DNA of 62,982 nt from a virus: the IMG/VR virus record IMGVR_UViG_3300042924_002983, positions 1-62,982 of that record. The stretch is one strand, 5' to 3'. This document shows positions 2,398 to 62,182 of this stretch, in pieces (positions within the stretch are counted from its first letter, which is position 1; each line of letters starts with the position of its first letter). Made by a program: the position numbers and the translations under genes. Below the pieces are notes generated by a model. It saw only the letters and a list, made by a program, of their open reading frames with translations, searched no databases and had not been told where the DNA came from.

Positions 2398-2536
2398 ATT
2401 CGCCGCAGTAGTCGGTATCTGCCGTCACGGGATGAACATCGACGGGTTCATTGGCCATCGGGAGCGGGGGGTAGCGGTGGCACTGGCCGTGGCGATCCAC
2501 CGTCTTCTCCCACCACCGGCACGTTTTGCACTCCAT
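2357..2536 (-). CDS. Hidden 59-residue zinc-finger protein
   Basis: A short ORF in a frame of its own, overlapping the last 89 bases of the preceding gene and the first 41 of terminase. It begins at an ATG preceded by AAGGAGTT five bases upstream, a strong ribosome site. The protein starts MECKTCRWW, continues GQCHRYPP and ends near DYCGEY, the C-x2-C...C-H...C-G-E pattern of small zinc proteins common in prophages. The function is unknown. The good ribosome site and the family-like pattern argue that it is real despite overlapping two genes. Confidence 0.7.
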   Translation of the reverse strand: MECKTCRWWEKTVDRHGQCHRYPPLPMANEPVDVHPVTADTDYCGEYAQAPTRTTTTAT

Positions 2537-3002
2537 GTTGCAACTCCTTCAAAGGGATTCCTTGGATCGTAATCGTTGTGGCGGCTTCCATAATTCGCTG
2601 GCGAAGCTCGTCCTCTAGCTCCTCTTCGCTCCAAGCGGTGAGAGGTTTCTTGGCTCCACCCATAGCGGTGTTGGCAGACACCAATCGCACAACGGTGTCC
2701 AGCATCTTGGTTCTGAACGCGCCGCCAGAAGGCGCATCAAAGAACTGTTTGAGGTACACGTTGGAAAACCCTCTCACCCCACCGAAATACTCCATGAGAA
2801 CTTCCAAGAGTTCCGATGAGTGGGGGATGTTCGCGCCGCCAATCCTGGCCGAGGCTACGAACAGATCGACCGCGCCCTTCTCAATCTCCGCGAGCTTCTT
2901 GTTGCCCTTCTTCTTGCGGGCCTTCTTCTCATGGGCGTTGCGGCACTTGCGGCACCGCGCGTGAAACCCGTCCTTGGATTTATGCCAGTTGGCGGGTGTC
3001 AC
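2448..3002 (-). CDS. Putative terminase small subunit with N-terminal zinc ribbon
   Basis: At least 184 residues from the GTG at 3002. It lies just upstream of the large terminase, where small subunits usually sit, and its middle is helical (LLEVLMEYFGG...KQFFDAPSGGAFRTKM). In-frame codons upstream of the GTG encode a first CxxC (KACIQCGTSYE), which would pair with CRKC to make a zinc ribbon. The only start-like codon that keeps it is CTG at 3047, with GGAG well placed upstream. So the true protein may be ~199 residues with a CTG start. The terminase role is inferred from position; a regulatory DNA-binding protein is the alternative. Confidence 0.6.
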   Translation of the reverse strand: MTPANWHKSKDGFHARCRKCRNAHEKKARKKKGNKKLAEIEKGAVDLFVASARIGGANIPHSSELLEVLMEYFGGVRGFSNVYLKQFFDAPSGGAFRTKMLDTVVRLVSANTAMGGAKKPLTAWSEEELEDELRQRIMEAATTITIQGIPLKELQHGVQNVPVVGEDGGSPRPVPPLPPAPDGQ

Positions 3003-3039
3003 TTCATAGGAAGTCCCGCACTGGATGCACGCCTTGTAC

Positions 3040-3906
3040 TCAGACAGGTTTCACACTCCACTTAGGGCGCAGATCCATCAGCTTCACGCCCGCATCGTAG
3101 TTGGCTTCCCAGCACTGCTTGAGCTTGCCGCTGATGTCCACAGCCTGGACGATCTGTGGCTTGCCAACGCACTTCGGCTTCCAGTGCCCAGCCCACGCAT
3201 CCCAATTGCAAAACACTGGGTTGTAGCCCAGCTTTTGCGTGCCCGCGAGGGACAGGTCGCGGGTCATCGTCACATCCTCAGTGGATGACTTCTCAGACTG
3301 ATACTTGTCTGGGTATTCGTAGTAGAACCAAGGGTTGTCGTTGGTGTCCTTTGGCTCAGTCACCTCAAAGGCCCGCATGTCGTACATGATCAATCCCGTG
3401 GGCAGGGCGGCGCACTCTTGGATGCCTGCCATCTTGGCCCCGGTGTCACGGTCGTACATCTCCAGCTTGAAGTCTGGATTGGCGTTGTTCGACTGCAGAG
3501 CCTGCCATCGGAACACGTAGACGTTCTCATGCGGTGGCGGGCCGCAGTAGGGCGCGCCGATGACCACCGGACCCTTGTGGTAGTGATCTACCAAGAAGTC
3601 GAAGGACGAGGACAGGAACGGCTTGGCATCGGCTTGCCCAGCGTACATGTCAGGCTTCATGTCCGAGTCCACCATCACTAGCACATCGACACCGTACTGG
3701 CGAGCCATGAGGACGGCCCGATTGCGTGTCATGGTGATGGGCGTGTCTGACAGATTCCACACTTGGATCCGCGAGACGCGAGGGTCTTGCGCAAGGCTAG
3801 ATGTGACCGGAAGCATCCACTCCCGAATGTCAGGCACCTCAGAGGAGATGCCGCCGTTGCCGCCGTAAGAGAACGTGCAGAAACCGATGGAGAACTTTTG
3901 TTGCAT
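3040..3906 (-). CDS. GT-A type glycosyltransferase-like protein
   Basis: A 288-residue protein with features of nucleotide-sugar glycosyltransferases: TRNRAVLMA, then the DxD metal site in VLVMVDSDMKPD (about residues 76-87), then a C-terminal domain with ALPTGLIMYD and STEDVTMTRD typical of phage relatives. It would transfer sugar from an activated donor to phage DNA, virion protein or host surface; the acceptor cannot be seen. It sits between the putative small terminase and a disordered structural protein. Its stop overlaps the extended start of the next gene. Confidence 0.75.
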   Translation of the reverse strand: MQQKFSIGFCTFSYGGNGGISSEVPDIREWMLPVTSSLAQDPRVSRIQVWNLSDTPITMTRNRAVLMARQYGVDVLVMVDSDMKPDMYAGQADAKPFLSSSFDFLVDHYHKGPVVIGAPYCGPPPHENVYVFRWQALQSNNANPDFKLEMYDRDTGAKMAGIQECAALPTGLIMYDMRAFEVTEPKDTNDNPWFYYEYPDKYQSEKSSTEDVTMTRDLSLAGTQKLGYNPVFCNWDAWAGHWKPKCVGKPQIVQAVDISGKLKQCWEANYDAGVKLMDLRPKWSVKPV

Positions 3907-3955
3907 TTCACACCCCGGGGTAGGTGTACAAGTCTACAGTATGACTAGGCGAGTG

Positions 3956-5392
3956 TCAACGACGCCTGGAGGGCACGCCTTGGACGTTAGCGCGCGGGTT
4001 GTACGCAGTCCCTTGTGACGGTGGCTCAATGGGGCGGGCGGTGCCTACTCGCTGACTAGACCGCCGCCTTGAACCCGCATATTCAGCCGCCAGTTGTCGA
4101 TTGCTGAAATCAATAGGGTCGGTTGGCGTAAGATCAGTCGGATCTTCCAGTTGGCGTGTTGGGAAACCCGTCGAACGCATAAACTCAGGCGGGGCTGGAG
4201 GGCTGCTTGGCTGCGGATTGAAATAGTCCGATGTATCGCTGGGGAAGATGGATACCGATTGGCGGGCGGCGCTGCGACTGGGTGCGCTTGCTGCCTGAGA
4301 TGGCCTGGAAGGGGAGCCTTGCTGCGGCGGGGCGGCAAAGGTAGCGGTACGCATGTCATAGTTCTGAGGCGCGAACTGGTCGTAGGTCTGCTGGTCCCAA
4401 GTCGGCTGCGGGTTGTTGGCTTGCGGGCTATTGCCGAACGGGTTCTGGAAGTTGCCCTGCATGTATTGCGTGGCGTTGCCCATGGCCCGCTGAGCGTCTG
4501 GGTTCTGCTTGGCGCTGGGCTGAGATCTTGGGCCGTAGCTTTGAACTAGGCTGTCGCCGTAGGGAACCTGCTGGCGAAAGTTTCCAACCGCCTGCGGGTT
4601 CTGCTGCGCGCGCTGCGACTCCGCAGCTTGCGAGAATGGGTTGTAGAACGTACCGTTGGCCAGCTGGTCGTTGGCCTGCGACAACAACTGACTGGGGTCG
4701 AAGGTCACGGGGCCGGTCTGCTGACCACCGTTGTACTGGCCGAGCCGCTGCGAGAGGTTGCCGACAAACGCCTCGCGCTGCGTCATGGCATCCTGCCACT
4801 GCAGCGGGTTCCCATCCACGCCGGTCGCGCTCGCTTGGATCGGGCTGGGGCGTCGGTCTATGGCGTTGTATGCCATGTTTCCGGCGTTACTCTGCCCGCC
4901 AGACATTGGACCGTACTGGCCGGTCGTCGGGTTATAGCCCTGTGATGTGAACACCCCGGGCATCGTAAACGACTGAGCCTGCGTGTTGCCGCCGTACTGC
5001 TTAGATGCTTGGTTGTACGCCTGCGCCCAAATCTGGTTGGATGGCACCTGCCCCGAGAGGTCGTTCCGCTGCGCTCCCTTGGGAGGAGTCCAGCCACCAC
5101 TTGGGCCTTGGATGGGGGGAATGCCGTAGCGTTCGTAGGGAGACAGCGATGCTGCTCCGGGCGCAGAGCCGGTCTGCGCGTATGCCGACATGTCAGGTGC
5201 CTTACTGGGCGCAGCTTGCTGCTGGGGAGCTTGCGGCTTGGAGGACGAAGTGCTTGCGCTGGTGGACGGGCCAGACGCACTAGGCTGCGAAGCCCGTTTC
5301 CGCGCCTGCTCCGCGATCCATCCTTTGTCACCAAAGAACTTATCTGTCTCGGCAGCGGCATACGCTGGGTCGGTCCCTTTGGCGAAAATCAC
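3956..5392 (-). CDS. Low-complexity Q/P/S/N-rich virion-region protein
   Basis: A 478-residue protein almost without hydrophobic core. The stretches are rich in Gln, Pro, Ser, Asn and Tyr (for example PQQQAAP, GQYGPMSGGQSNAG, NPQPTWDQQTYDQF). Such compositions occur in phage head or tail accessory proteins and scaffold-like proteins. The GTG start overlaps the stop of the 51-residue gene (TAGTG), implying coupling. A short gap containing a good pyrimidine-rich leader separates it from the glycosyltransferase. I do not recognise the family. The start region (YAAAETDKFFGDKGW) is the only part that looks folded. Confidence 0.7.
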   Translation of the reverse strand: MIFAKGTDPAYAAAETDKFFGDKGWIAEQARKRASQPSASGPSTSASTSSSKPQAPQQQAAPSKAPDMSAYAQTGSAPGAASLSPYERYGIPPIQGPSGGWTPPKGAQRNDLSGQVPSNQIWAQAYNQASKQYGGNTQAQSFTMPGVFTSQGYNPTTGQYGPMSGGQSNAGNMAYNAIDRRPSPIQASATGVDGNPLQWQDAMTQREAFVGNLSQRLGQYNGGQQTGPVTFDPSQLLSQANDQLANGTFYNPFSQAAESQRAQQNPQAVGNFRQQVPYGDSLVQSYGPRSQPSAKQNPDAQRAMGNATQYMQGNFQNPFGNSPQANNPQPTWDQQTYDQFAPQNYDMRTATFAAPPQQGSPSRPSQAASAPSRSAARQSVSIFPSDTSDYFNPQPSSPPAPPEFMRSTGFPTRQLEDPTDLTPTDPIDFSNRQLAAEYAGSRRRSSQRVGTARPIEPPSQGTAYNPRANVQGVPSRRR

Positions 5393-5547
5393 TAGCGATC
5401 TCCTTGTTGCGTTGTCATGCCGTCCGTGCCAACGCCCGTGCCGTAGAGCATGCGAAGGCGTTCAGCATCGTCCTGCGGGAGATCGCGGATCTCAGCGATT
5501 AGCTGGCGCAGGAAGTCCAGGTTCTGGATGGCTGGGTCTTGGTTCAT
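5392..5547 (-). CDS. Small 51-residue protein in head operon
   Basis: It begins with ATG at 5547 and reads MNQDPAIQNLDFLRQLIAEI and on to a TAG that overlaps the GTG of the next gene. The first half is an amphipathic helix with acidic and Leu residues (RDLPQDDAERLRMLYG). It lies directly after the capsid terminator and before the low-complexity protein, to which it appears coupled. The function is unknown. Codon use and the exact stop/start overlap support it as a real gene. Confidence 0.55.
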   Translation of the reverse strand: MNQDPAIQNLDFLRQLIAEIRDLPQDDAERLRMLYGTGVGTDGMTTQQGDR

Positions 5548-5550
5548 CTA

Positions 5551-5584
5551 GAAAACGGGGCCAGGATGTTTCCACCCTGGCCCC
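5551..5584 (-). terminator. Rho-independent terminator after capsid genes
   Basis: On the minus strand GGGGCCAGG and CCTGGCCCC form a perfect 9-bp stem (arms 5557-5565 and 5576-5584) with a 10-base loop, followed by GTTTTC. It lies just after the decoration-like gene, so it would end or attenuate the abundant capsid transcript before the packaging genes. Confidence 0.75.
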
Positions 5585-5611
5585 GCCCCCGAAAGCCCGT
5601 GAAGGGCAGTT

Positions 5612-6229
5612 TTACGAAGCCCGAGTCCGAATCAGAGCGAGAACGGCCGAGCCGGTCGTCGCACCCGCGCTGCATGCGTAACCGATGACACCGATGCCGT
5701 TGTCGTTCGCACCAGCAGTGCTGGACGACAGCGGGGACACCGTCACGCGGCCAGCCGTGGTCGCGCCGCTCGTCGCAGCGGTCACCACCGACAGAGCCGA
5801 GCGGACGGCAACGTCCGAACCGGAGAGGGCCACCGACACTTCGGTCGGGCCATCAACCGTCACCCAGAACACATCATTGTTGGCAACGCCACCGGCCGGG
5901 AGGAACTCGTCCACCACACCAACGAGCGAATCGTTGGTCACCGCAGCGTAACCGTCAGCAGCGCCAAAGAGAGCCTTGCCGGTGCCACCCAGTCGAACAA
6001 CTCGCTTGGGCAGCAAGGCCGCACCCGAGGTGTTACGAACAGCGATGCACACCTTGCGGCGATTGCTGCGGACCTGACCGTTGACGGGGTTCACATCGGT
6101 GAACTCCTTCACACAGCCAACCCAGTTATCGCCGTACGACCCTGTCGTAATACCGTACAGACTGTCATTCGGACTATCCAAGCCAAGCGTCTGGCCCAGA
6201 CCGAACGGAGGATCAACTTGCAGTCCCAT
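5612..6229 (-). CDS. Probable capsid decoration/stabilising protein
   Basis: A 205-residue beta-rich, small-residue-rich protein encoded 18 bases after the major capsid gene. The pattern of many VRLGGTGKALFG / GVVDEFLPAGG-like strands with Ala/Gly/Thr loops, and the position immediately downstream of the major capsid protein, match phage head decoration or cement proteins. It has no catalytic motif or signal peptide. The gene ends just before a strong terminator, so it belongs to the highly expressed capsid unit. Exact family not identified. Confidence 0.65.
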   Translation of the reverse strand: MGLQVDPPFGLGQTLGLDSPNDSLYGITTGSYGDNWVGCVKEFTDVNPVNGQVRSNRRKVCIAVRNTSGAALLPKRVVRLGGTGKALFGAADGYAAVTNDSLVGVVDEFLPAGGVANNDVFWVTVDGPTEVSVALSGSDVAVRSALSVVTAATSGATTAGRVTVSPLSSSTAGANDNGIGVIGYACSAGATTGSAVLALIRTRAS

Positions 6230-6247
6230 TGTGACTATAGTCCTTTC

Positions 6248-7369
6248 TCAGGCGGTGATGATTTTGAAGAAGTTGCGCGGCGACTTGAACTTCAAGTTGC
6301 CGAGCGTCGAAACAACGTAGCGATACTGCTGGGTGATTTCGTCATAGAATGGACCCTCTGAATTCATCAGCTGGCCTTCCATGCAGAGCAGTTCAATGTT
6401 GCCCACAGACAGGCCGTAGCCGGTGCCCGCAGGAACAGAACCTTCGCTCGCGATTTCCACCCCGTCCAGTTCAAACACATCGGTGAAGCCATAGGATCGC
6501 AGGCCGTTAGTACGGCTGACAATCACTCGCTCCTTGGAGTCCAGCGTGTTGAGGAAGTCGATATAGCTGCGTCGATCAAACAGCAACATATCCACTTGAT
6601 CCTCTTTGCTATCATTTCGGCGGGTCTGGTGAATCGCTTCACGCACCGCCTTAACGCAGTTGGCAGACCAAGTGTTCCCGGTCGCATTGAAGTAGGTGCT
6701 AAGACCCTGGACGATTACCGGAGAGTAAAAATCAAACTCCGGGTCGGCCGAGCCGTTGGGCCAGACGCCCGTCGTCTGCGAGCCACCGTACGCACCCAGC
6801 ACAGTCGAAAGACCGGCGTAGGTATCGGACGGTGCGTAGAACGGGTCAGCATCATTCCGGTTGCGAAGCGCGCCGGTGGTGACGTTGATCGTCTGCGGCG
6901 TAGCGGCCAGACCAAGGAAACTCTCAACGCCGTGGAAACGGAGTTCGTTGCCAGCAGCATAGCCGTCAACCACCCACTCCTTGGCAAGGTACTGTTCCAT
7001 GCTAGTAAGCAGGCGGCTCGCCATCTTACCAGCGACGTTTACAAGCGCCTGAGCCGAGCGATTTTCCAGCATCTCTTTTTTATAGATGGCATCGCTTGCC
7101 TGTGCCCCGCGGAATTCAAGCTCCGCTCTCTTCCAGAGATTCTGGCGTGCGAAGGTACGCGGCGTTTCTCCATTATTCCCCGATGGAACGTGGTTCCGGT
7201 ACTGGATCTCCCAATCAAAACCCCTGCCTGACATGTTGGTGCGGATCTGGCCCGAGCCTTCCAGAGCAGCAAACAACTTGTACTTACGAAGCGATGCGAT
7301 CTCCTCCTCACGGAGGTGGTTTACAATGGTCGTAGCAATACTACGCGCCCAGTCAGTCGAACTTGCCAT
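6248..7369 (-). CDS. Major capsid protein (HK97-type)
   Basis: A 373-residue protein that should form the icosahedral shell. It lies directly after a scaffold-like gene (stop and start overlap as ATGA) and before a decoration-like gene, the standard order. The N-terminus is helical and charged (REEEIASLRKYKLFAALEGSG). The middle contains long helices (ENRSAQALVNVAGKMASRL) and a C-terminal part with GNIELLCMEGQLMNSEGPFYDE, resembling environmental podovirus capsid proteins. Length fits the family. A maturation protease was not found, so the N-terminus may not be processed. Confidence 0.85.
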   Translation of the reverse strand: MASSTDWARSIATTIVNHLREEEIASLRKYKLFAALEGSGQIRTNMSGRGFDWEIQYRNHVPSGNNGETPRTFARQNLWKRAELEFRGAQASDAIYKKEMLENRSAQALVNVAGKMASRLLTSMEQYLAKEWVVDGYAAGNELRFHGVESFLGLAATPQTINVTTGALRNRNDADPFYAPSDTYAGLSTVLGAYGGSQTTGVWPNGSADPEFDFYSPVIVQGLSTYFNATGNTWSANCVKAVREAIHQTRRNDSKEDQVDMLLFDRRSYIDFLNTLDSKERVIVSRTNGLRSYGFTDVFELDGVEIASEGSVPAGTGYGLSVGNIELLCMEGQLMNSEGPFYDEITQQYRYVVSTLGNLKFKSPRNFFKIITA

Positions 7370-8385
7370 CAGATAACTCCATCGTTAGCTAGTTGGCTTT
7401 TCAGCCGGTCCTCAAAACTCATCCGCGCGCGCGGTGCCCGCGGTTCCGTAGTTCCTGCACTTCGATTCGGAGTGCGTGTTGCGCGCTCGCGAAGGAACTG
7501 CATGTTCTGTTCTGCAACGGGGTCGGCCTGGGGGACAGGAGGGGCAGGGGGGGCCATCTGAGGCTGAGCCTGCATCTGCTGCATCTGCTGGTAGCGCATG
7601 TTCAACAGGTCGCGCTGCAGCATGCCGGTCGCGTACTTCCAGCGGTCATTGGCCGACTGGATGCCAAGCTGCTGTGCTTGGGCGATGTACTGCGAGATCG
7701 CCTGACCTTCTTGGGTGGGATTGCCCTGCTGGTCGTAGAGCCAGTCAGCGTTCTGACGCTCCAGATCCTGCACGTAGTTCTGCGTCTGGTACTGGCTGAG
7801 ATGGTTCTGCACCATCTCCTGAGCCTTCTGGATCGCGACCTGCTCAACGAAAGGCTTGAGCGTGTTTTCGGGATCGGTCACCAGCTTGCGGGCGAAATCT
7901 GCCGTGTAGCTCTGGTATTCCCTGAGAGCCTGCTGGGCCTCATAGGGAGCATCCTGCGAGATCACTTCCTTGCCCGTGGAGGGATCCCGAACGATGTAGC
8001 TCTTCCACGTATCCTTGACCTGGGGCGGCGACCACCACTTCGGAGCTTCTGGCTCCTTGGGCTTGGCAGCTTCGGCCTGAGCCTTCTTCCAAGTCTCAAA
8101 CTCCCGCTGGTTCCGCAGGTACTCCTGGGCGTAGGGAACGACCGACTGGTACTGCTGCAGCTGACGCTGAGTCTCACCGTAGCCGTTGTAGGCCCGATAG
8201 AGGTTCTGGGCGATTGAGAGATCGTCCTGACCCTGGAAGTCGGGGAGGTGCCGGAAGGCAGAGTAGGGGGTATCAAAGCCGGGAGTAGAAGTCTCTGAAC
8301 CGGCCGTGTCCTGCGAGGGTGCTTCGTAGCTTGTCTCAGCTACGGGAGCTTCCTGCGTCTGGAGTTCTGGAGTTTCGTCTGACAT
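7369..8385 (-). CDS. Putative scaffolding protein
   Basis: A 338-residue, Gln/Glu/Lys-rich, mostly helical protein (for example KKAQAEAAKPKEPEAPKWW; YQQMQQMQAQPQ) with an acidic disordered N-terminus (ETPELQTQEAPVAETSYEAP) and a basic C-terminal tail (RMSFEDRLKSQLAND). Such a helical body with a basic C-terminal capsid-binding tail is typical of scaffolds. Its stop overlaps the capsid start by ATGA, the usual scaffold-capsid coupling. There are no catalytic residues. Confidence 0.75.
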   Translation of the reverse strand: MSDETPELQTQEAPVAETSYEAPSQDTAGSETSTPGFDTPYSAFRHLPDFQGQDDLSIAQNLYRAYNGYGETQRQLQQYQSVVPYAQEYLRNQREFETWKKAQAEAAKPKEPEAPKWWSPPQVKDTWKSYIVRDPSTGKEVISQDAPYEAQQALREYQSYTADFARKLVTDPENTLKPFVEQVAIQKAQEMVQNHLSQYQTQNYVQDLERQNADWLYDQQGNPTQEGQAISQYIAQAQQLGIQSANDRWKYATGMLQRDLLNMRYQQMQQMQAQPQMAPPAPPVPQADPVAEQNMQFLRERATRTPNRSAGTTEPRAPRARMSFEDRLKSQLANDGVI

Positions 8386-8441
8386 GTATTTCCTTTCGGG
8401 GGAAGGGTCTACATAGTCAGTGTCCTGTTTCTCCTATTTTG

Positions 8442-9404
8442 TTACGGGGTAGGTTGCTCGCTTGCGCCAGAGGCGGCTGCGCCTGCTCCTATTGCTCCCG
8501 GTACTGCATACTTGCGCAGGATGCGGATCTGGTCTTCGGTGCCTGGGAACATCACGTAGTTGCGCGTGCCGCTTGGGCCGAGATTGCGTGATCCTTGGTC
8601 TAGGTAGCGGATGCCGGGAACCCCCGATGATCGCAACGCCTCCGATGCCAGCTTAAAACGCTCCTCAAAGTTATCCGCCCCATATCGCCGCACTGCTGGG
8701 TGGCCTGACAATCCGTGGTAGATGTTTCTGCCGCTAATTTCCCAAGGCGTGTCAAACCCATAAGCAGTAAAGAGAGTATCTTTTTCCAGCCCAGGCTGGT
8801 TGAAGTTTTTCCCCCGAATCGGACTTCCTACAGAGTCCACAGACGGAACCCCCAGCTTGCGCAACGCCTCTAGGACATGTGGCGGCTGGTCCATCATCGT
8901 TGCGTCCCAGTCCAAGAAGGCGCTTTCTGGATGAGCTATCTCTAACTCATACCCAGTGCCCAGCTGGTCTTTGGCGACTCTTGCGCTGTCGGTTACCTCG
9001 TAACCAGAGAATCCAGATTTACGCCCCAGTGACTGGCTTATTGCCTGCGACGGGTAATCAAATCCCAGCCAGTCGTTGGCGTGTAGCTCTTTCAGAAAGT
9101 TTTGCTGACGCGGGTCAAACCCTTGCAGGCTCCCCATCACATCGGCTGGGTCTGCGTCTTCTGGAAGTGCATTGAGGAAGTCATCACGCAACTTGCGGTA
9201 TGAGAGAGATCGCCTGTACTCGTCGGCAACATCTTTGTTTTGGGCTAGGTAGTGGCCGTAGCCGTAAGCCTGGTGTCCCTCTCCTGAGTTGATGAACTTT
9301 GCATCAAAGCCATCAAAGTGCTTGGGCTGCGGGCTACCGTGATAGGCGCGGATGACTTGGCGTACCGCATCACCGGATGCGTCTAGCTGGCTGGGCGTAG
9401 GCAT
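8442..9404 (-). CDS. ADP-ribosyltransferase-like virion-associated protein
   Basis: A 320-residue protein with the hallmarks of phage ADP-ribosyltransferase domains: AYHGSPQPKHFDGFD at residues ~20-34, EGHQAYGYGHYLAQ at 42-55, and a C-terminal GVPGIRYLDQGSRN...GTRNYVMF. In these proteins the AYHGS histidine and the GYGHYLA tyrosine bind NAD. It lies in the head operon between scaffold and a structural protein, so it may be packaged and injected to modify a host target; this is inference. The C-terminus (VPGAIGAGAAASGA) is hydrophobic. Residues 71-128 are homologous to part of the 488-residue protein at 42841-44307. Confidence 0.75.
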   Translation of the reverse strand: MPTPSQLDASGDAVRQVIRAYHGSPQPKHFDGFDAKFINSGEGHQAYGYGHYLAQNKDVADEYRRSLSYRKLRDDFLNALPEDADPADVMGSLQGFDPRQQNFLKELHANDWLGFDYPSQAISQSLGRKSGFSGYEVTDSARVAKDQLGTGYELEIAHPESAFLDWDATMMDQPPHVLEALRKLGVPSVDSVGSPIRGKNFNQPGLEKDTLFTAYGFDTPWEISGRNIYHGLSGHPAVRRYGADNFEERFKLASEALRSSGVPGIRYLDQGSRNLGPSGTRNYVMFPGTEDQIRILRKYAVPGAIGAGAAASGASEQPTP

Positions 9405-10285
9405 CAGAATTCTCTTATGTAGTCGCCGGGACGGGTGCGGTATTCGCTTGGCGGCTGCGGTGTCGGGGCGAGTTCTGGGATCAGATTCGATAGCAGGGGG
9501 ATACCGTAGGACGGCGAGATCAGTGCTTGGCTGGTGCCGAACTCACCGACCAATGCTCCGAGAGCGCGCTTGCCTGCACGGGCTGCGTTGACGGCATGGC
9601 CAAGTCCGTTCCAAGGGTCCATCACGGAATCCATCCCAGTACCAAGAATCATTGCGGCGGTCTTCGGGACACCGGCAGCATGGAGAGAATCCGAAGCTGA
9701 TAGCTGGAGATCCGCGGCCTGCTCCTTGGCGACACCGGAGACGACTTCGTCCCAAGCTCCGGGGGCGATGTTTCTTGGTCGTCGCCCCCGCATCTGCCTA
9801 GCTTGTTCCGCAACATCGACAACCGTAGGAGTTCCTTTGGGAACCCAGCCGCGCTCTTCGGCCCCGTACATCATGGCGGTGTTGAGGGCGCTGTCGAACT
9901 GCTTCTTGGCGTTTGGGTAGGGATTGCCTTGGGGATCCACCCAGTTTGCCAGACGTTGACTGCTTGCCACGGCCATCTGGGGAATGGCACTGAACATGGC
10001 CCCCGCGTTGTACAAGGGTGCGCCGGGAGCCAACACTCCTCGCCAATGGTACGGAGACTTCAGCGAATCCAACTCGCCCCGCTCATAGCTACCGATCTCA
10101 GACGCTATCCGCGGATCGATATTGGCTCTGTCTGCTGGTGTGGGGTGCATCGCAGCAAGTCGCTGAAGCAACTTCTCCTGCCGTTGCTTGTCGTCCCACT
10201 CCTTCTGAGAGTCCATTTCGTAGCCAAGTATGCTACGCGCCAGACGGCCGGGAAGGTTGTATTGGGAGTCTAGCGGCTCAGCCAT
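9404..10285 (-). CDS. Structural-region protein of unknown function
   Basis: A 293-residue protein whose stop overlaps the start of the ADP-ribosyltransferase-like gene, so the two are coupled. The N-terminus is charged and helical (EMDSQKEWDDKQRQEKLLQRL). The middle has GVLAPGAPLYNAGAMFSAIP and GTGMDSVMDPWNGLGHAV, glycine/alanine-rich amphipathic segments reminiscent of internal virion (ejection) proteins such as the 1197-residue one here. I do not recognise a family. A partner of the ADP-ribosyltransferase in the capsid is a reasonable guess. Confidence 0.65.
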   Translation of the reverse strand: MAEPLDSQYNLPGRLARSILGYEMDSQKEWDDKQRQEKLLQRLAAMHPTPADRANIDPRIASEIGSYERGELDSLKSPYHWRGVLAPGAPLYNAGAMFSAIPQMAVASSQRLANWVDPQGNPYPNAKKQFDSALNTAMMYGAEERGWVPKGTPTVVDVAEQARQMRGRRPRNIAPGAWDEVVSGVAKEQAADLQLSASDSLHAAGVPKTAAMILGTGMDSVMDPWNGLGHAVNAARAGKRALGALVGEFGTSQALISPSYGIPLLSNLIPELAPTPQPPSEYRTRPGDYIREF

Positions 10286-45236: not shown

Positions 45237-46325
45237 TCAGAAGATCTGGCGTTGGTTGCGGAACACGCCCATGTTGCCAATGGTGCGGTTAAACAGATCG
45301 TTCACACCAGCGACGGATGCGGTGTAGGTTTTCTGGCTATCCTTAAACCCGGAGTTCATGTCAGTCTGAACCGTCCCGATCCGATTGGCCGAATCGGAAT
45401 ACCCGCCAGACAAGGCGTCCAAGAGCGAGCCGGTCGGGATCGCTTGTCCTTCTCGGGGTCGGGACTCTGGGAACTCACGCGCGAAGTTGTAGAACTGATC
45501 CATGCCGCGGGATGACGCGCCAAGATTCAGCTTGTTGAAGTCCATCAGAGCGCCGTAGGCATCTCCCACCATCGTACGTGGCATGTTGCGGGCAATGGCT
45601 TGGTCGGCATTGAGCGAACCCATACCGGAGTAGTAGTTGTTGTTGAGTGAAGACAACTCCCGGCCGTTGTTGATGTCACCACGCAGGTTTTCCAGCATGC
45701 TGAAACCCTCGCCGCCGTATTGGCTAATTGCTGGGGTGGGCGAGCCGCCGGTCTGGCCTCCCGCCAGCCCAGGCAGGGCAGCAGAGACATCGCGGCCGAC
45801 CTGCATCGCTGCGCCAGACTTGCCAAGTCCCGCCAAAGCGTTGTAACGGCCAACGCCAAGCTGGCTGACCGCGCTCTGGTTGCCGACATTCATATCGGCT
45901 AGCGCCTTCTGATAGCCGTTCTGGTTCTGCGCCCACGCCTGCAATCCCTGCCCAGCCACGTTGCCGTAGCTCGCCATGGCAGCTGTGCCAAGATTCGACA
46001 CCGCAGCCTGACGCGCAGCCTCGGCCGCGGATGCAGCTTGGTTGGTGGCCTGAGCGTTGTTCCACGTATTGCCCAGAGCGTTTGCGATGCCGCCAATACC
46101 ACCGGCCATGGCGGCGTAGTTCTGGGCGTAGCTGTTCCCAAGGCTGGCAAGCCCTTGGTTGTAGGTGCCGTACCCCTTGTTGTAGGAGTCGTACATCCCG
46201 CCAAGGGTCTGACCAAACTGGCCAGGAGCTTGGGCCAGCGCCCCGCCGACAGCGGTAGCGTATTCCTTCGCGGTTTGTCGGCCGAAGGGGGCTAGGAATG
46301 TGCCGGTGAAGCCGTTCATGGACAT
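45237..46325 (-). CDS. Gly/Asn/Ala-rich virion-region protein
   Basis: 362 residues, low complexity: N-terminal ALAQAPGQFGQTLGGMYDSY, middle SAAEAARQAAVSNLGTAAMA, C-terminal DLFNRTIGNMGVFRNQRQIF. Alternating Ala-rich helices and Gly/Asn loops resemble internal virion or tail-tube filler proteins. First gene after the Cys-rich protein. Family not recognised. Confidence 0.65.
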   Translation of the reverse strand: MSMNGFTGTFLAPFGRQTAKEYATAVGGALAQAPGQFGQTLGGMYDSYNKGYGTYNQGLASLGNSYAQNYAAMAGGIGGIANALGNTWNNAQATNQAASAAEAARQAAVSNLGTAAMASYGNVAGQGLQAWAQNQNGYQKALADMNVGNQSAVSQLGVGRYNALAGLGKSGAAMQVGRDVSAALPGLAGGQTGGSPTPAISQYGGEGFSMLENLRGDINNGRELSSLNNNYYSGMGSLNADQAIARNMPRTMVGDAYGALMDFNKLNLGASSRGMDQFYNFAREFPESRPREGQAIPTGSLLDALSGGYSDSANRIGTVQTDMNSGFKDSQKTYTASVAGVNDLFNRTIGNMGVFRNQRQIF

Positions 46326-46334
46326 AAGATTCTC

Positions 46335-47525
46335 CTACTTGTTATTGCCCCTGAGAGTCTGTTTCAGTGCCGACAGGGAAATCGCAGCCAGAATCAAGGC
46401 GTATCCAGCGGGTGGGAAAAACCACAAACCCCGCTTTTCAGCCTCTTCTTTGAGCCAGCCACAGATTTCTGGGAGGCGTGTCAAACACACCCGCCCGCCC
46501 CAGTCGTCCATCTGTGCAGCCCGCGCGTTACAACTGCACGTAGGGGAGGCAACAATCCCAGCTAGGCGCAGCAGAGCTTTTAGCTCCGTGCCGGGGCCGG
46601 TGCTGGCTGGCGGTTCCTCACCGGACGCATAGACGATTGGCTCACCGATGGCAGCTGGCGTGAAGCCTGGGCAAGGGTCAGTCGTAAAAGAAATCTGCAC
46701 GGCATAGCTGCCAACTTGGTTGTTGGTGCAACTCCCGCTAGTCAGGTTGGGTCGCAGTGCAAGATCTCCGGCCCCTGGTGTGCCTGTGTAGTTGGAGCCA
46801 ATGTCGAAAACAACGTCTCCAACCCTGCCGATGAGGCGTGCCCTGTTGACCGCTATCACATTGCAAGCATCTGCAGAGGTGCCGGGAACCCCATCCGGGC
46901 TTTGCGCCGCTGTGTTTTGAGTAGCGGTAATTGTCACTGTCACCCCGTCAGGAATGGTAATGACTACTTGATTCCAGCCTGCCGGGTCTCCGATAACGAC
47001 AGAGCGGCTGTACGTGGTGGTTGTGGTGGCTAAACAACCAGACGGCCCACAGCACTTCTCTCCTACCGCACAGCAGTCGTACGCCGCCCCAGTACCGGCG
47101 CAAAAGGTGCCGGTCGTACACTTGTCCACGCAGTTCCCGCTAGCGTTATCGCATCGCTGCGACAGCGGGCAGCACGTACCGGCACAACAGGAACGAGGCG
47201 CAACGCATGTGAGAACGCAGGAGCCTGAGACGCAAGCGTTGCAGTAGTACGCTTGGCACCCTCCGTGCGGCACTCCTGCTGCGGTCAGAGTGGTGCAGTT
47301 ACAGGTAGTCTGTGGCGCGTTCAGCACTTTGCCGACAGAGGAGCAGACGCAGGCATTTGAGAGAGTGCATGGTGTGTTGTACGGCGGTGCGGATGTGCAT
47401 GCGTATTGAGTGCAATCGCCACCAGTGGTGAATGTTCCGAACCGATACACACATTCAGATTGTGAAGTGTCCCTACACACGGACCCATTGCAGCACCGGC
47501 CCGTCTCGCAACAGGTACAGGTCAT
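46335..47525 (-). CDS. Cysteine-rich tail-region protein with C-terminal membrane segment
   Basis: 396 residues with about 32 Cys in the first ~165 residues. They lie in repeating pairs (TCTCCETGRCCNGSVC, RSCCAGTCCPLSQRC, YDCCAVGEKCCGPSGC), like small granulin-type disulfide knots. Residues ~170-290 are a beta domain (VVIGDPAGWNQVVITIPDG). The C-terminus has a conserved-looking NARAAQMDDWGGRVC module and a hydrophobic helix (FFPPAGYALILAAISLSAL). Disulfides cannot form in the cytosol, so they would close after lysis. Very unusual for a phage; perhaps an adhesin or an exported protein. Confidence 0.65.
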   Translation of the reverse strand: MTCTCCETGRCCNGSVCRDTSQSECVYRFGTFTTGGDCTQYACTSAPPYNTPCTLSNACVCSSVGKVLNAPQTTCNCTTLTAAGVPHGGCQAYYCNACVSGSCVLTCVAPRSCCAGTCCPLSQRCDNASGNCVDKCTTGTFCAGTGAAYDCCAVGEKCCGPSGCLATTTTTYSRSVVIGDPAGWNQVVITIPDGVTVTITATQNTAAQSPDGVPGTSADACNVIAVNRARLIGRVGDVVFDIGSNYTGTPGAGDLALRPNLTSGSCTNNQVGSYAVQISFTTDPCPGFTPAAIGEPIVYASGEEPPASTGPGTELKALLRLAGIVASPTCSCNARAAQMDDWGGRVCLTRLPEICGWLKEEAEKRGLWFFPPAGYALILAAISLSALKQTLRGNNK

Positions 47526-48988
47526 CAGATGCGCGGCCTCAAGTAAACCAGCTGGTCTGCCTTTTGCACTACTGTGATGTCCACTCTCTTTGACTCATAC
47601 TCTTCATCCAGCAACACCTCGTCGTCCTTCAAAGTCCCTTCCCCCGTAGGCTCCGTGACAGCCACGTAACCATCCAAGGACACCTGCACATCGGTAGTGC
47701 CTGCCGTCAATGTGACGGTCGCTCCCGCAGCACTGACCGTGACGGCAGATGTGGTGCTGCCGGTCGTTGGACTGAACGTGCCGCCGTTCACCTTGAGCGA
47801 CACGGACGAAGACGCAGAAGACTTTGTCAGCGTGATCGTCGGCGTGTTGACGGTCACGGACTTGGACGACCCCGGCGAGACGAGAGTCACGTTCCCGTCC
47901 ACCTTCCCTTGGCTGGTAATGGACACGCTCGGCGCGCCTGTGAAGACAACGCTCTTGGTCACGCTTGTCGTTGTCAGGACAAGTTTGCAAGAAGCATCCA
48001 AATAGCCGCCGGTGGGAATGTCTAGCGTGACCGTTCCTGCCAGCGTTCCAAGCGCACCAGTGGCCGCGATGCCGGTTGGGGTTGCTGAAAACGTACCGCT
48101 GGTAGGTATGTCAACGGAAGCCGTCAGCGGGCCGCACGTTGCGTTAGGGTACGTGTCGTAGAAGATTGTGCCGGTCGCCGTGGCGCCCGATAGAGTTCCC
48201 CCAGTGATGGTCGGTATCGTTATCGTACCACTGGCTTCGATGGCACTTAGGGTCGCGCTTTCGACGGTCGGGACTTCTACCTGCCCCGTAACCGTAAACT
48301 CCCTGTCTACCTCAGTGGTGCCGACCGTTACCGCCTTGTCGTACACGCGGGCGTTGGTGGCGTGTGGCACATCCACCTTGCCGTTAACAGTCACGCTTTT
48401 CAGAATGCGGGCGTTGCCGGTAGGGAAATTCTGTTGCTCACCGCCTGGGCCACCGCGAAAAATGACGGTGGTGATGCCGTCGCGCCCGTTGAAGCCATCG
48501 CGGCCATCGCGACCTTGGCTGCCAACGTAGGTGTTGTTGATGTATTCAACATTCAGATTGGTAGTGTTGAGGTTCTGGGTGGTAGTGTTGTTGATGTAGG
48601 TGTTGTCGAACGTGCTGTTGCCAGCGACATTGAACGTATCGCCGCCGAAGTAGTTGTTGTAGTTGAAGTCTTGGTTGATCGGGAAATTGAACTGGTGACC
48701 GTCGTAGTTGTTGGTGTTGGTGGTGTTGGTGTAGGTGTCGCCAGCGACATCAACGAACGTATCTTGGCCAGCGGTAGGAATCAGTCCGGGGTAGTCGGAT
48801 GTCTTCCACACTCCTTTTCTTGCCAGCCCGCCAGGGCCGGTTGAGGTAGGCGGCTGAAGATTCACAGCGCCGCGGTGCGAGAGCGGTTGCTGGCAGTTGC
48901 CAAGAGCCTGCATCAGCTGCCGCAACGCGGCTTCTGGCAGAGCGCCGGAAAGAGCCTGCGCCAGCTGTGGCATGCTTTGTGTAAACAC
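47525..48988 (-). CDS. Tail fibre-like protein with Asn-rich and collagen-like segments
   Basis: 487 residues. N-terminal helix (QALSGALPEAALRQLMQALG), an Asn/Thr/Tyr-rich region (TNTNNYDGHQFNFPINQDFN), a short collagen-like GXY run (GSQGRDGRDGFNGRDG) and then beta repeats rich in Thr/Val/Ser (for example TVNTPTITLTKSSASSSVSL). Such architecture is common in receptor-binding fibres. Ends by overlapping the Cys-rich gene. Confidence 0.7.
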   Translation of the reverse strand: MFTQSMPQLAQALSGALPEAALRQLMQALGNCQQPLSHRGAVNLQPPTSTGPGGLARKGVWKTSDYPGLIPTAGQDTFVDVAGDTYTNTTNTNNYDGHQFNFPINQDFNYNNYFGGDTFNVAGNSTFDNTYINNTTTQNLNTTNLNVEYINNTYVGSQGRDGRDGFNGRDGITTVIFRGGPGGEQQNFPTGNARILKSVTVNGKVDVPHATNARVYDKAVTVGTTEVDREFTVTGQVEVPTVESATLSAIEASGTITIPTITGGTLSGATATGTIFYDTYPNATCGPLTASVDIPTSGTFSATPTGIAATGALGTLAGTVTLDIPTGGYLDASCKLVLTTTSVTKSVVFTGAPSVSITSQGKVDGNVTLVSPGSSKSVTVNTPTITLTKSSASSSVSLKVNGGTFSPTTGSTTSAVTVSAAGATVTLTAGTTDVQVSLDGYVAVTEPTGEGTLKDDEVLLDEEYESKRVDITVVQKADQLVYLRPRI

Positions 48989-51573
48989 TACTTTGCACCC
49001 TCCACAACGACCGCGTGTATAGCAGGTGCATTTGCGGACGAAGACTGTGTGCCAGCAAACGCTATGGCGACATGCCTGTCGGCCCCAGCGGATCGCTCTT
49101 CATTGCCGCCGCTGAACATGGCGCGTGCCACACCGCTTGCCTCACCAAGGGCAGAGCGAGTGCGCTTCATGTTCAGAACAGACTCCGCGCCGGGGACGAC
49201 CGGGACAAATCCATCACCCCGATCACTGGCAACGGCATTCGGCCTTGGGGTGTCGGAGCCGTTGAAGTAGCGGGATAGCGAGAGCGGGGCATCGCCCGTA
49301 GTCGGCGTGTACAGCAAGCTCACGGCCTGCCTACTGTCCTCAGTCACTAGCTGCAGATTGCCAGAGCGGAAGCTGTACGGGATGGCAGTGCCATTGTCTG
49401 AGTAGCCTGCCATCCGTACGAACCCAGACGCTGCGTACGCAACCCCTTGCTGCCCGCCAATAGCGTATGGTGCCGCGGCCGTCAGTGGCACTGCGTACTG
49501 TTCTTCCCACCAAGACTTTGTGGTTAACGAATAGCAGAGCGCACGGGAAGGAGAGGCGTCAGTGGAGTTGCAGTAGAAGAATCGGACAACCTTGGTGGCC
49601 AGGTCGGCCCGCACAAAAAACTGGGAGGACTTTGAGAAGTCGATGATGCCGTCGCGCCAGTAGTTGTCCACCGGCAAAGAGATCGGCTGGTCACTCTGGC
49701 CTTCAAAGACATACATCCCGTAGCTATCCGCAATGAAAGCCACGCCACCCATCACATCCCAGCAGCGGCTGTTCAGAACCCCGCGGTAGGCCACCAGCAT
49801 GATGCTTGCATCTAGCACGGGCTGGGCCACGTAGGTCAGCTTGTATAGATGCCTGGACTGGGCGGCGATTAGAGAGGATCCCAGAGGGATGAGAGCTACC
49901 ACCGCATCAGAGTCGCCCGCGTTTTCTTGGACAACAATCTCATTTTCCAAGGGGATGGATTCCGGCTCGTCCACCTCTGAGAAGTAGAGGCTGTTGGGCT
50001 TCTCTCCAGTCGTATCCACGGCCAGCCAGCAGCGGTCTTGGAACATGCACGCCACGGAGAAATTCCCTGGCGGCACACCAAAGCGGCGGGCGTTTAGCTG
50101 GCCGCTAGGCAGGGTCACGGGCAGCAGGCCGTAGCCATCGCGCTCAGCGTCTGACAGCTGCTCGTCTGTGAACGTATCCGTGAACGTGCCAGTGAAATTC
50201 CCAGCAGACCGCAGGATTTTTGCCACGCGGAACAGAAGAACGCTCTGGTCGGAGGTGGTGCGCCACAACTCTACGGCCGAGACACGGTCGTCCAGCCCCG
50301 CGTGCGCAAGAGTCCAAGTTAAAGAGGAAGCTCCGTTTTGAACGTCCACCTCAATCAATTCAGAAATCGAAGAACTGATCGGCCCGCGGAACTTCTCTGG
50401 CGTGGAGTCGATATAGCGGATCGCGCACTTGTACTTGCCCCGCATGACGTTGGAGATAGTTGCGGTGGCAGTCGCGTTGTAGTCGCCAAGAGAGACAGTC
50501 GGCGGCAAGGCGTAGCCGCCAGCGCCAAAGACAGTGACCTTCGTTATGCTGCCCCCTGACACCGCCGCAGTCGCCGCGGCAGCGGAGGCTGTATCGTCGG
50601 TGGCGTCGGGCTGAAAGGAGATGGCGGGTGGCGCAAGAAAGCCGGTCCCTCCGCTGGTCACAGTCACAGCCGCTACACCGTACAGCATGCCGACAGACAG
50701 GACGGCACCAGCGCCGCCGCCTCCTACCAGCGAGGCAGTCACAGCACCAGTAGCTCCCTTCCCGCCAGAGCGCAGGTCTACGGACGCAACCGCTCCCGAC
50801 TCAGAGATGGTGACGACAGCATTCGCGCTAGTCAGACCCTGCGCGCTGGAGAACACAACCGTGGGTGCGGTGGTATAGCCAGAGCCACCATTGACCACCG
50901 TGACTGCCTGCACGGACCCTGACACTCCAAGAGAGAACGAAGCACCGGAAGCATTGCTGTTGCTGATCGACACAGAGGGAGCGGATGTGTAGCCTGCCCC
51001 CGGCTCCGAGACGGTGATGCCGACAACCCGTCCTCCTGCGACATCCGCTCGCGCCACTGCCGTCTTTGTTGGTGACCCGCCAGAGAAGGTGACTGTCGGA
51101 GCCGCGGAGTAACCGTTGCCGGGGCTGACGACATTGACGGCATCCACATAGCCAGCCATGGAGGAACTGGCGATGGCGACAGCCGGTCCCTTGTATGGCT
51201 TTTGCAATCCGATGGGTTGCATGGTGCCCGCAGAGCCGTCCCAGCGTAGGCCGCGCCCCATGCCGTCGAACACGTACAGATCATTGAATCGCGAACGGAC
51301 AAAGGACGCAGGAATAACCGCGCCGGTGTACACGCTCGCGGATGCTTGTGCGTTGCCCGAGATGGTGACCGTTGGCGCGGATGTGTAGCCTGTTCCACCG
51401 TTGGTGATAACAACAGACTCAACCTGCGTACCGGCCATGTGGGCAAGTCCGGCAGCACCCGCACCACCGCCGCCAGAAAAGCTCACTGAAGGTGGGGCGG
51501 TGTAGCCGGAACCGCCAGTAGTCATTGAGATTGAGACGACTTGGCCGGATCGACGTTGGGCCAGATAGGTCAT
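48988..51573 (-). CDS. Large tail protein with glycine-tyrosine beta repeats
   Basis: 861 residues. Residues ~10-360 hold many copies of a VxxGGxGYTxAPTVxxSG unit (VTNGGTGYTSAPTVTISG, VVSPGNGYSAAPTVTFSG, VSEPGAGYTSAPSVSISN, VVNGGSGYTTAPTVVFSS). The C-terminal half is globular (QSRHLYKLTYVAQPVLDASI, MGGVAFIADSYGMYVFEGQS), resembling podovirus tail hub or tubular proteins. Probably a tail tube or hub with an inserted surface repeat domain. It follows a small gene and the head-tail adaptor. Confidence 0.7.
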   Translation of the reverse strand: MTYLAQRRSGQVVSISMTTGGSGYTAPPSVSFSGGGGAGAAGLAHMAGTQVESVVITNGGTGYTSAPTVTISGNAQASASVYTGAVIPASFVRSRFNDLYVFDGMGRGLRWDGSAGTMQPIGLQKPYKGPAVAIASSSMAGYVDAVNVVSPGNGYSAAPTVTFSGGSPTKTAVARADVAGGRVVGITVSEPGAGYTSAPSVSISNSNASGASFSLGVSGSVQAVTVVNGGSGYTTAPTVVFSSAQGLTSANAVVTISESGAVASVDLRSGGKGATGAVTASLVGGGGAGAVLSVGMLYGVAAVTVTSGGTGFLAPPAISFQPDATDDTASAAAATAAVSGGSITKVTVFGAGGYALPPTVSLGDYNATATATISNVMRGKYKCAIRYIDSTPEKFRGPISSSISELIEVDVQNGASSLTWTLAHAGLDDRVSAVELWRTTSDQSVLLFRVAKILRSAGNFTGTFTDTFTDEQLSDAERDGYGLLPVTLPSGQLNARRFGVPPGNFSVACMFQDRCWLAVDTTGEKPNSLYFSEVDEPESIPLENEIVVQENAGDSDAVVALIPLGSSLIAAQSRHLYKLTYVAQPVLDASIMLVAYRGVLNSRCWDVMGGVAFIADSYGMYVFEGQSDQPISLPVDNYWRDGIIDFSKSSQFFVRADLATKVVRFFYCNSTDASPSRALCYSLTTKSWWEEQYAVPLTAAAPYAIGGQQGVAYAASGFVRMAGYSDNGTAIPYSFRSGNLQLVTEDSRQAVSLLYTPTTGDAPLSLSRYFNGSDTPRPNAVASDRGDGFVPVVPGAESVLNMKRTRSALGEASGVARAMFSGGNEERSAGADRHVAIAFAGTQSSSANAPAIHAVVVEGAK

Positions 51574-59665: not shown

Positions 59666-60195
59666 ACGCCGCGCCCCTTGGCCCGATAGGCATGCTTAGC
59701 GATCACCTGCTCGCGGAGGTCTGCGTTCTTCGCGGACGGGTTCAGCTTCTTGGCCTTCGCTACTTCCTCTCGCACAATCTTCTCGCTGATGAGCTTGCGC
59801 TTGGGATCGGCCGCGCCCGGGTCGTAGTTCACCGTTCCGCTCACGGCCAATCGCCGCTTGTGGGCGACTTTGAGTACATCGTCGTTGTTGGAAACCCACG
59901 CTTCGGGATCGCGCCAGCCTCGCTTGTCGGCCAGCCCTCCCACGTAGTGCTTGCCCGAGATATTGATGCCTGCGCTCTTGGCTTCCGCGGCCACGTACTG
60001 GGCCTGACGAACAGGCATGTCGTCCAGCTGCTGGTTGTTCATGCGGCCCTCCATGAACGCACGGTCTGTCCCCTTGGTTCCGGGGGGTGTCTGCATGGCG
60101 ACCATAGCGGCCCACTTCTCGCCGTAGGGCAGGGCGCGCTTATAGGTAGCGATGGCTTCTTCGCCAGCGCGCTTAACTTCAACCGGGATTTCCAT
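59662..60195 (-). CDS. Small virion protein after portal
   Basis: 177 residues from ATG 60195 (MEIPVEVKRAGEEAIATYKR), overlapping the portal end by 17 bases. Helical and basic: AQYVAAEAKSAGINISGKHY, VGGLADKRGWRDPEAWVSNN, KLISEKIVREEVAKAKKLNP. Such proteins are seen near the portal of environmental podoviruses. No enzymatic motif. Possible adaptor or internal protein. Confidence 0.6.
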   Translation of the reverse strand: MEIPVEVKRAGEEAIATYKRALPYGEKWAAMVAMQTPPGTKGTDRAFMEGRMNNQQLDDMPVRQAQYVAAEAKSAGINISGKHYVGGLADKRGWRDPEAWVSNNDDVLKVAHKRRLAVSGTVNYDPGAADPKRKLISEKIVREEVAKAKKLNPSAKNADLREQVIAKHAYRAKGRGV

Positions 60196-62158
60196 TTGGC
60201 GGTCCTTCGGGGGGCGGGCCTGGAGGTGGGGGAGGAGGAGGCGGGACCAAGTAGCGCGACACATCGGTGTTCATCGCCTTGCCCCAGTCCTCCAGGAGCG
60301 CGTTGAACAGTTCCGGCTTCCCGGCCTGCAACAGACCCTGACTGATCGGCGCGAGAATCTGCATCGCGTTGGTGATGTTCTCAATGCGAGTGGCGACGTT
60401 AGGCTTCTTCACAGACCCAGCCTCAACGCGGTACGAATACTCACGCACAACTGAATCCGGGTCTTCGCCTTGAACGTGCATCTGCCATGCCTGCGCCGCC
60501 ATAGGGCCAAGCAGCGGAGCAACGTCCTGCGGTCCAATCAACCAGCGGGCGAGAAGGGCTTCCTTGCGCGCGACCAGCGACAGAGCGTCTTCCAGAATGT
60601 TTGCATAATCGTCCGGCCTCACCGAAATCTGCTCAGCCTTCACGGTCGCTTCTGCAGCTGATCTGAAGGAATTTCTGGTCATACCGTAAATGAGTTCTGT
60701 CAAACCCACTCGCCGGTCGAACAGCGCGGTGACCTCAGAGATGATCTGGTACATGTCCGAGGTGACCCCCGGCATCTGGAAGACCGAGATCACATCATTG
60801 ACCGACCGGCCGATAGCTTCCGAGATCTCTACGATCTTGAACCCGCCCTCGTCCTTCTCCAGGATCTTGGCCTTGAGGTCCGGGTCTGCTGACTTGGCTA
60901 CACCGATCAGCACCTGCGCGCTGGTGGCAATGCGCGTGGCGAGGAAGCTCATCGCCCAGTTGATGAATCGAAGCTCACCGATACCGGGACGAATGATAGA
61001 GATGGGCCAGCTGTACCCTGGCTTGCCGTGCCAAGCGAGCGGGGTGAACGGCCAGCCGCCTGGTTCTGCCCAAAAGGGAATGGGCCACTGCGCCGCCATG
61101 AACATCGACGGTGCAACGCCAGTCTCGTCTACTTCTTCCTGCAGCATCGCTTCAGGCATGTTCAGTGGGAAATCAATTCCCTCTGCCACCGCGATATAGC
61201 AGTTGGGACCGAACGCATCGAACTTGCCGCGGAGGTCTTTGTCGGCGTTCTTGAGCCGGTCGCCAAACCCTGTCTTGGAGTAAACCTCCCAGTAGACGAT
61301 GAGGTCGTTGGTCTTGCCCAGCTTCTTCTTGTATTCAAAGCCACGCTCGTTGTTGTCGCCGCGTGACGAGTAGCTCTCCATGTGACCCTTTAGGTCTTCA
61401 CGGGAGAGACCGAACTTCGCCGCTACCTCGTCCACAGGCTGGACCCGCTTGCGCGCTGCCCATCGGATGTCCTCAAACTCATCGGCATCGGGATCCCAGA
61501 CGAGGTTGTCGATGGAGTCGTAGAAGCTCCCGGCCATCTTCAGCTGCGAGCCGGGGGGCGAGTAAAGCTCATGCCACCAGACGCCTGCACCCTTAATGAA
61601 CGCTTCCTCCACCACCTTCCGCGAGTGCTTCTTAAGATCTAATTCATTCGGGGTGTAGTTGAGGTAGTCTTCCAACAGCCTGGAGACGAGCTTGCGCCGC
61701 TCCAGCATCATCTGCTGATCCTGCAAGCCCTGCTGGTACATCTGCATGCCGGGGTCTGGCATCATCACTGGCTGGCCATCGGGTCCAATGATTGGCTGAC
61801 CGTCCGGCCCCATGGCTGGCACTGGGGGCTGGGGCTGGATGCCAAGGAGTGCTGGCCCGATGATGGGATACTCCTTGGGGGTCACCGCGCGGTTGGGGTT
61901 CCGGTGGTGGATCACCGCGGTAAAGAGGCGCACGGCCTCCCACACACGGTTGACCTGCATGCGGAATGCAGGAGGAGTCATGCCCTTGTTGTAGCCACGC
62001 TCCCCACGGGCGTACCCATCTTTCCACATGAAATCTGGGTCGCCAGCGAAGAAGTTCATCGCCTCGTCACCGTCCTCTGTGAACGGACGCTTATGGGCGG
62101 TGGCCTGCTTAATGCACTCAAGCCAGCGGGCGACGATTGGACGAAGCGGTTTATCCAT
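60179..62158 (-). CDS. Portal protein
   Basis: 659 residues from ATG 62158, five bases after GGAG. LFTAVIHHRNPNRAVTPKEY and the conserved long helices (KKHSRKVVEEAFIKGAGVWW; DFPLNMPEAMLQEEVDETGV), then PGIGELRFINWAMSFLATRI, MTRNSFRSAAEATVKAEQIS and ISVRPDDYANILEDALSLVA identify a podovirus-type portal. It forms the dodecameric ring at the packaging vertex and binds terminase. The last ~20 residues are proline-rich (PPPPPPPPGPPPEGPPNGNP). The same gene's start is repeated at 1-373. Confidence 0.9.
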   Translation of the reverse strand: MDKPLRPIVARWLECIKQATAHKRPFTEDGDEAMNFFAGDPDFMWKDGYARGERGYNKGMTPPAFRMQVNRVWEAVRLFTAVIHHRNPNRAVTPKEYPIIGPALLGIQPQPPVPAMGPDGQPIIGPDGQPVMMPDPGMQMYQQGLQDQQMMLERRKLVSRLLEDYLNYTPNELDLKKHSRKVVEEAFIKGAGVWWHELYSPPGSQLKMAGSFYDSIDNLVWDPDADEFEDIRWAARKRVQPVDEVAAKFGLSREDLKGHMESYSSRGDNNERGFEYKKKLGKTNDLIVYWEVYSKTGFGDRLKNADKDLRGKFDAFGPNCYIAVAEGIDFPLNMPEAMLQEEVDETGVAPSMFMAAQWPIPFWAEPGGWPFTPLAWHGKPGYSWPISIIRPGIGELRFINWAMSFLATRIATSAQVLIGVAKSADPDLKAKILEKDEGGFKIVEISEAIGRSVNDVISVFQMPGVTSDMYQIISEVTALFDRRVGLTELIYGMTRNSFRSAAEATVKAEQISVRPDDYANILEDALSLVARKEALLARWLIGPQDVAPLLGPMAAQAWQMHVQGEDPDSVVREYSYRVEAGSVKKPNVATRIENITNAMQILAPISQGLLQAGKPELFNALLEDWGKAMNTDVSRYLVPPPPPPPPGPPPEGPPNGNPG

Positions 62159-62182
62159 GGGCACTCCTATTAGCTAGTGTCC

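Follow-up and report, generated by a model that had tools for sequence, protein, structure and literature searches.

A cysteine-rich, lectin-like protein from the structural operon of uncultured phages is a candidate host-binding protein

The analysed stretch of DNA, hereafter the window, corresponds to the IMG/VR virus record IMGVR_UViG_3300042924_002983 and is 62,982 nucleotides long. It is probably a near-complete genome, opened between the terminase and portal genes (Table 1). Among its late genes is one for a protein with 39 cysteines and six CC pairs, and the initial annotation had counted the extreme cysteine content exactly: residues 1–165 hold 32 of the cysteines. The other five frames across the gene each contain 6–17 stops, and the cysteine content of the other main late-gene products of the window is mostly 0–1.7%. 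The start codon overlaps the stop codon of the preceding gene (TGATG), which suggests translational coupling within the structural operon. Elsewhere in the window, positions 8442–9404 gave a sub-threshold match to ART-PolyVal, the ADP-ribosyltransferase domain of polyvalent proteins (E 6.8e-6).

Table 1. Positions of the genes and protein features described in the text.
Feature	Position	Strand	Remarks
Terminase	712–2397		Weak Terminase_6N match
Downstream neighbour, 362 aa, Cys-free	45237–46325	−	Conserved synteny
Cys-rich lectin-like protein, whole ORF, 396 aa	46335–47525	−	Single open frame; 13 relatives with the same synteny
C-terminal four-helix CxC...C module, residues 309–390	46356–46601	−	AlphaFold pLDDT 91.9, pTM 0.82
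Hydrophobic fourth helix of the module, residues 369–388	46362–46421	−	TM-like only in the clade of the window
LecA/PA-IL/PllA-like lectin-fold domain, residues 166–288	46662–47030	−	PDB sequence and structural matches
N-terminal Cys-rich domain, residues 1–165, 32 invariant Cys	47031–47525	−	Alignment of relatives
First Cys unit, residues 9–43, GRCCNGSVCRDTSQSECVYRFGTFTTGGDCTQYAC	47397–47501	−	Matches exported planctomycete GACC repeat
Upstream neighbour, 487 aa, collagen-like and beta-repeat, fibre-like, variable	47525–48988	−	1-base overlap with the Cys-rich ORF
Structural protein, 861 aa, conserved synteny anchor	48988–51573	−	19 relatives at 71–100%; PHROGs virion structural match
Portal	60179–62164

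The 861-aa structural protein appeared tail-tube- or nozzle-like on inspection. The fibre-like neighbour contained a collagen-like stretch (GSQGRDGRDGFNGRDG). The ends of this protein were conserved, and its middle part varied greatly in length (304–707 aa in relatives). Scanning IMG/VR with the Cys-rich protein yielded four loci, and scanning with the 861-aa protein 19 loci. The order of the genes for the 861-aa, fibre-like, Cys-rich and Cys-free proteins was the same in each of the 13 contigs of sufficient length. Homologues are thus present in the tail modules of other phages, in synteny with virion genes on no fewer than 12 further phage contigs. The whole Cys-rich protein and its relatives had no match in Pfam, NCBIfam or PHROGs, and cultured phage records contained no relative of the protein or of its C-terminal module.

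Assembly of phage tail proteins takes place in the reducing cytoplasm, and these proteins usually contain few cysteines. The Cys-rich protein started with MTCTCCETGRCC and had no signal peptide, so its 32 N-terminal cysteines would be made in the reducing cytoplasm as well. All 32 were invariant in 13/13 relatives, in an alignment in which the non-cysteine positions of the N-terminus averaged 39% pairwise identity. The cysteine pattern is therefore under strong constraint and not due to chance. In 11/11 members the number of cysteines was even, with 32 or 34 in residues 1–165 and two or four in the lectin domain. Within the lectin domain, the alignment columns 265/279, 272/323, 235/238 and 268/269 always gained and lost their cysteines together in these 11 members. 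Such paired gain and loss is expected of disulfides but not of free thiols or of a metal site with four ligands, and the lectin-domain cysteines therefore probably form disulfides. By extension from this pattern we infer that the N-terminal cysteines are also disulfide-bonded; metal binding and oxidation after lysis are the alternatives there. No disulfide map was drawn because the AlphaFold model of the whole protein was weak for residues 1–37 (pLDDT <50).

The initial annotation had also described a beta domain and a NARAAQMDDWGG module following the cysteines, and both were real, conserved features, the former covering residues ~167–288. When the profile of the whole family was compared with PDB sequences, only PllA and the PA-I galactophilic lectin scored below E 1 (E 0.04–0.05). 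The profile of the lectin domain matched PllA and the PA-I-type lectin at E 0.0012/0.0015, and nothing else below E 7. The predicted model placed LecA-family entries at or near the top with both Foldseek and VIA-align; in the latter, six of these entries reached Z 10.6–11.0 over 98–110 residues, compared with 9.4 for the next family. This comparison with LecA, made by database matches only, supports the assignment of the predicted middle domain to the LecA/PA-IL fold family. Fold and domain boundaries were the same as in LecA (PA-IL) and PllA. Most of the phage relatives had a G..L.L..ND...T..DN.G.F motif, of which ND...T..DN aligned with the calcium and sugar loop of PllA. The phage domain differed from LecA and PllA in being flanked by a Cys-rich head and a helical module and in having extra paired cysteines. 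In the window itself, the aspartate aligned with the PllA/LecA calcium ligand was replaced (RPNLTSG... vs the relatives' ND.NTGDN; N-L...N-N), which makes sugar binding by this member uncertain. A scan of viral contigs with the lectin domain found nothing beyond the window family, and literature searches for phage LecA and for Cys-rich phage tails returned nothing relevant with the phrases tried.

A profile scan of IMG/VR found the C-terminal module at about 80 loci, most of which matched only residues ~305–390. Its consensus was G.GT.L...L...GI...P.C.C..RA..M[DN]..G..WC......I.GWLKEE..KR.LPF....A...v..AI, in which the conservation of GWLKEE is partly by construction, as this motif was one of the search seeds. 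The module was absent from Pfam (above cut-off), PHROGs, PDB sequences and cultured phages. DUF5535 was considered as its identity and set aside, since few modules matched and the best match was partial and below the Pfam cut-off (1e-4). AlphaFold modelled the module as four helices with high confidence, and none of the PDB folds matched this model convincingly (Foldseek E ≥2; VIA Z ≤3.6). Among viral proteins, there were only two plausible matches, one of them strong, and both were uncharacterised proteins of uncultured phages. Judged from the model, the fold of the module may be new. A second architecture, in which the module follows a ~100-aa beta-like domain (PPP....LDV.Y...P), was seen in large phages (L104:3630–4199 and L062–L099). 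In L104, the module adjoined a terminase-like gene and had no Cys-rich neighbour. Since the module occurs in a different protein in these loci, docking of Cys-rich proteins would not be its sole role.

The module was nevertheless linked to Cys-rich proteins in many phages. It was fused to them in the window family, in L043 and in the Pirellulales MAG L103 (618 aa, 44 Cys), and unrelated Cys-rich ORFs lay immediately upstream of it in L036, L039, L045, L048, L052, L053, L055, L066, L085 and others. A Cys-rich ORF was fused to the module or located up to three genes upstream in 14/26 non-redundant loci, compared with 12/58 control triplets taken from the same loci (Fisher p 0.004, a moderate p-value obtained with a conservative ORF caller). 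On a planctomycete chromosome (L107), a Cys-rich ORF followed by a diverged module ORF was located beside a phage gene that appeared protease-like on inspection. Fusion and adjacency together suggest that the module and the Cys-rich proteins work together. The initial annotation regarded such an appearance as almost unheard of in phage virion proteins, which is not true of this group, since Cys-rich ORFs adjoining the module recur across many uncultured phages.

Many of the unrelated partner proteins started with the same leader, M(S)PLYxxNGxLL....LA....CCC (M(S)PLYLYNGQLL....LA....CCC-like), which was found in L040, L043, L044, L047, L048, L052, L053, L055, L058, L066, L068 and L085. This leader is possibly a signal for virion attachment or processing. 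L044 encoded three consecutive Cys-rich proteins (positions 4226–9742; 44, 52 and 43 Cys), of which the second has poly-Ser stretches, and a module ORF directly downstream. In L103, a prophage-like contig, the gene directly upstream of the Cys-rich module fusion (positions 2293–4245) encoded a 650-aa protein whose long repeats are of the GSGSGS and GDGTGS types.

The cysteines could instead bind zinc or an iron-sulfur cluster in a cytoplasmic or virion-interior protein, with the CxC...C of the module as part of the metal site. The absence of a signal peptide would fit such a protein, as would the number of conserved cysteines C285, C330, C332 and C347, which is four, and the CxxC zinc-ribbon-like N-terminus of the module carriers L044, L047, L057 and L058. 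However, the lectin-domain cysteines vary strictly in pairs, as disulfides do, and a CC-rich pattern together with a LecA fold is characteristic of proteins that are exported. Within the helical module, the AlphaFold model places the third cysteine ~15 residues from the CxC along the same helix. Moreover, an N-terminal unit matches a repeat of planctomycete proteins with signal-like leaders (see below). We therefore consider metal binding improbable and prefer a disulfide-rich protein displayed on the virion.

The rates at which the parts of the protein evolve are in line with such a display. Across relatives, the 861-aa protein averaged 80% identity and the module 73.5%. Averages were lower in the Cys-rich N-terminus as a whole (50%), the lectin domain (47%) and the fibre-like neighbour (41%). 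Divergence is thus far more rapid in the Cys-rich and lectin parts than in the structural gene upstream. Between the window and L009, the lectin domain was saturated at synonymous sites, compared with a dS of 0.48 for the structural gene. L009 and L012 differed by a dS of 0.03–0.07 except in the module, where dS was 0.92. Conversely, L009 and L015 had a dS of 0.26 in the module and of 1.37 in the structural gene. These contrasts indicate that the module was exchanged independently. Receptor-binding proteins are typically mosaic, with exposed parts that change rapidly and a base that is conserved. The Cys-rich protein likewise combines a position in the structural operon, a variable, putatively exposed part and a conserved anchor, and it shares domain swapping with phage receptor-binding and tail-fibre proteins. 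It differs from them in its predicted disulfide-rich scaffold and LecA-type lectin and in having no relative in cultured phages.

A membrane-like helix at the C-terminus, pointed out in the initial annotation, is hydrophobic indeed: its Kyte–Doolittle hydropathy was 1.6–2.4 in the window family, and all full-length members had this helix and a basic tail. These features would suit a non-virion protein that acts in the host, tail-anchored in the membrane, for example for superinfection exclusion or lysis. Yet the helix is homologous to the fourth module helix of the other carriers in other phages, which is less hydrophobic (0.5–1.6). A C-terminal anchor without a signal peptide would also keep the Cys-rich and lectin domains in the cytoplasm, while sequence change in the putative ectodomain outpaces that in the conserved genes next to it, and the gene was inside the structural operon in all relatives. 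We regard a tail-anchored protein as less probable still than a metal-binding one.

A search for the cysteine repeat in possible host genomes, suggested in the initial annotation, found it in Planctomycetota. A profile of the phage Cys units matched planctomycete proteins at E 1e-6 to 3e-5. The planctomycete repeat has the pattern GACC..G.C...C...GGTY.GDG..C...C and shares with the first phage unit the spacing CC-x4-C-x7-C-x12-C-x4-C, a GT[FY] and a G before the fifth cysteine. With phage units only as the query, the first Cys unit was found in 3/199 genomes of Planctomycetota and in 0/200 genomes of a second phylum, that of G002, a MAG titled Alphaproteobacteria. When host units were added to the query, the repeat was found in 12/294 and 1/299 genomes, respectively (10/292 vs 1/299, p 0.005, leaving out the two genomes that supplied the units). 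Relatives of the terminase TerL of the window had a similar distribution (13/294 vs 2/299, p 0.0035), and no member of the window family was found in cellular genomes. Based on these sequence matches, the host probably belongs to the Planctomycetota.

Several of the host carriers of the GACC repeat had hydrophobic, signal-like N-terminal leaders on inspection, and L109 contained ~16 tandem copies. The phage protein, in contrast, had one clear unit and no signal peptide. The proposal of the initial annotation that a host-like exported protein was captured by the phage is thus borne out for the first Cys unit alone, the rest being a phage-specific combination that ends in a phage-borne module. 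The match of the first unit to exported repeats of planctomycetes would also fit a protein captured from the host cell surface that serves as a decoy or mimic and not as an adhesin. This reading has only a slight chance of being correct, about that of the tail anchor, as just this one unit matches, the protein lacks a signal peptide and the lectin-domain and module architecture occurred only in phage contigs, the lectin domain having been sought in viral contigs.

Our preferred reading, which we hold with moderate confidence, is that the Cys-rich protein is a virion-displayed host-binding protein, either an adhesin or a receptor-binding accessory, of a phage probably infecting Planctomycetota. 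From the patterns described above we infer its virion location, disulfide state, glycan binding, the docking role of its module and its host. The N-terminal 165 residues would form a disulfide scaffold with about 16 bridges, part of which would consist of a repeat likewise exported by the hosts. The LecA-type lectin domain in the middle would bind a surface glycan, and the conserved four-helix module would dock the protein onto the virion or escort it there. The disulfide-stabilised adhesin suggested in the initial annotation thereby gains indirect support from the LecA-like fold, the paired gain and loss of cysteines, the fast divergence with recombination, and the synteny with virion genes in other contigs.

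Cys-rich YTV proteins were reported from planctomycete cell walls (PMC8567305, PMC10632474). These wall proteins of Planctomycetales resemble the phage protein in their richness in cysteine and in the host phylum, a likeness drawn from their published description; they differ from it in being wall proteins of the host. With the phrases tried, no paper on phages of planctomycetes, a phylum with Cys-rich protein walls, was found in the open-access literature. Tentatively, uncultured phages, largely of Planctomycetota, might share fast-changing, disulfide-rich virion adhesins that are docked by the dedicated four-helix CxC...C module, which would be a new fold and family. The module may also handle thiols, possibly allowing disulfide exchange with the Cys-rich protein walls of the hosts. 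We consider this wider scenario possible, though doubtful.

The combination of 32 invariant cysteines in the head and a lectin fold in a protein without an export signal opens a testable route to understanding how planctomycetes are bound by phages. The previously undescribed module, present at about 80 phage loci and often beside Cys-rich proteins, constitutes a new domain family to characterise.
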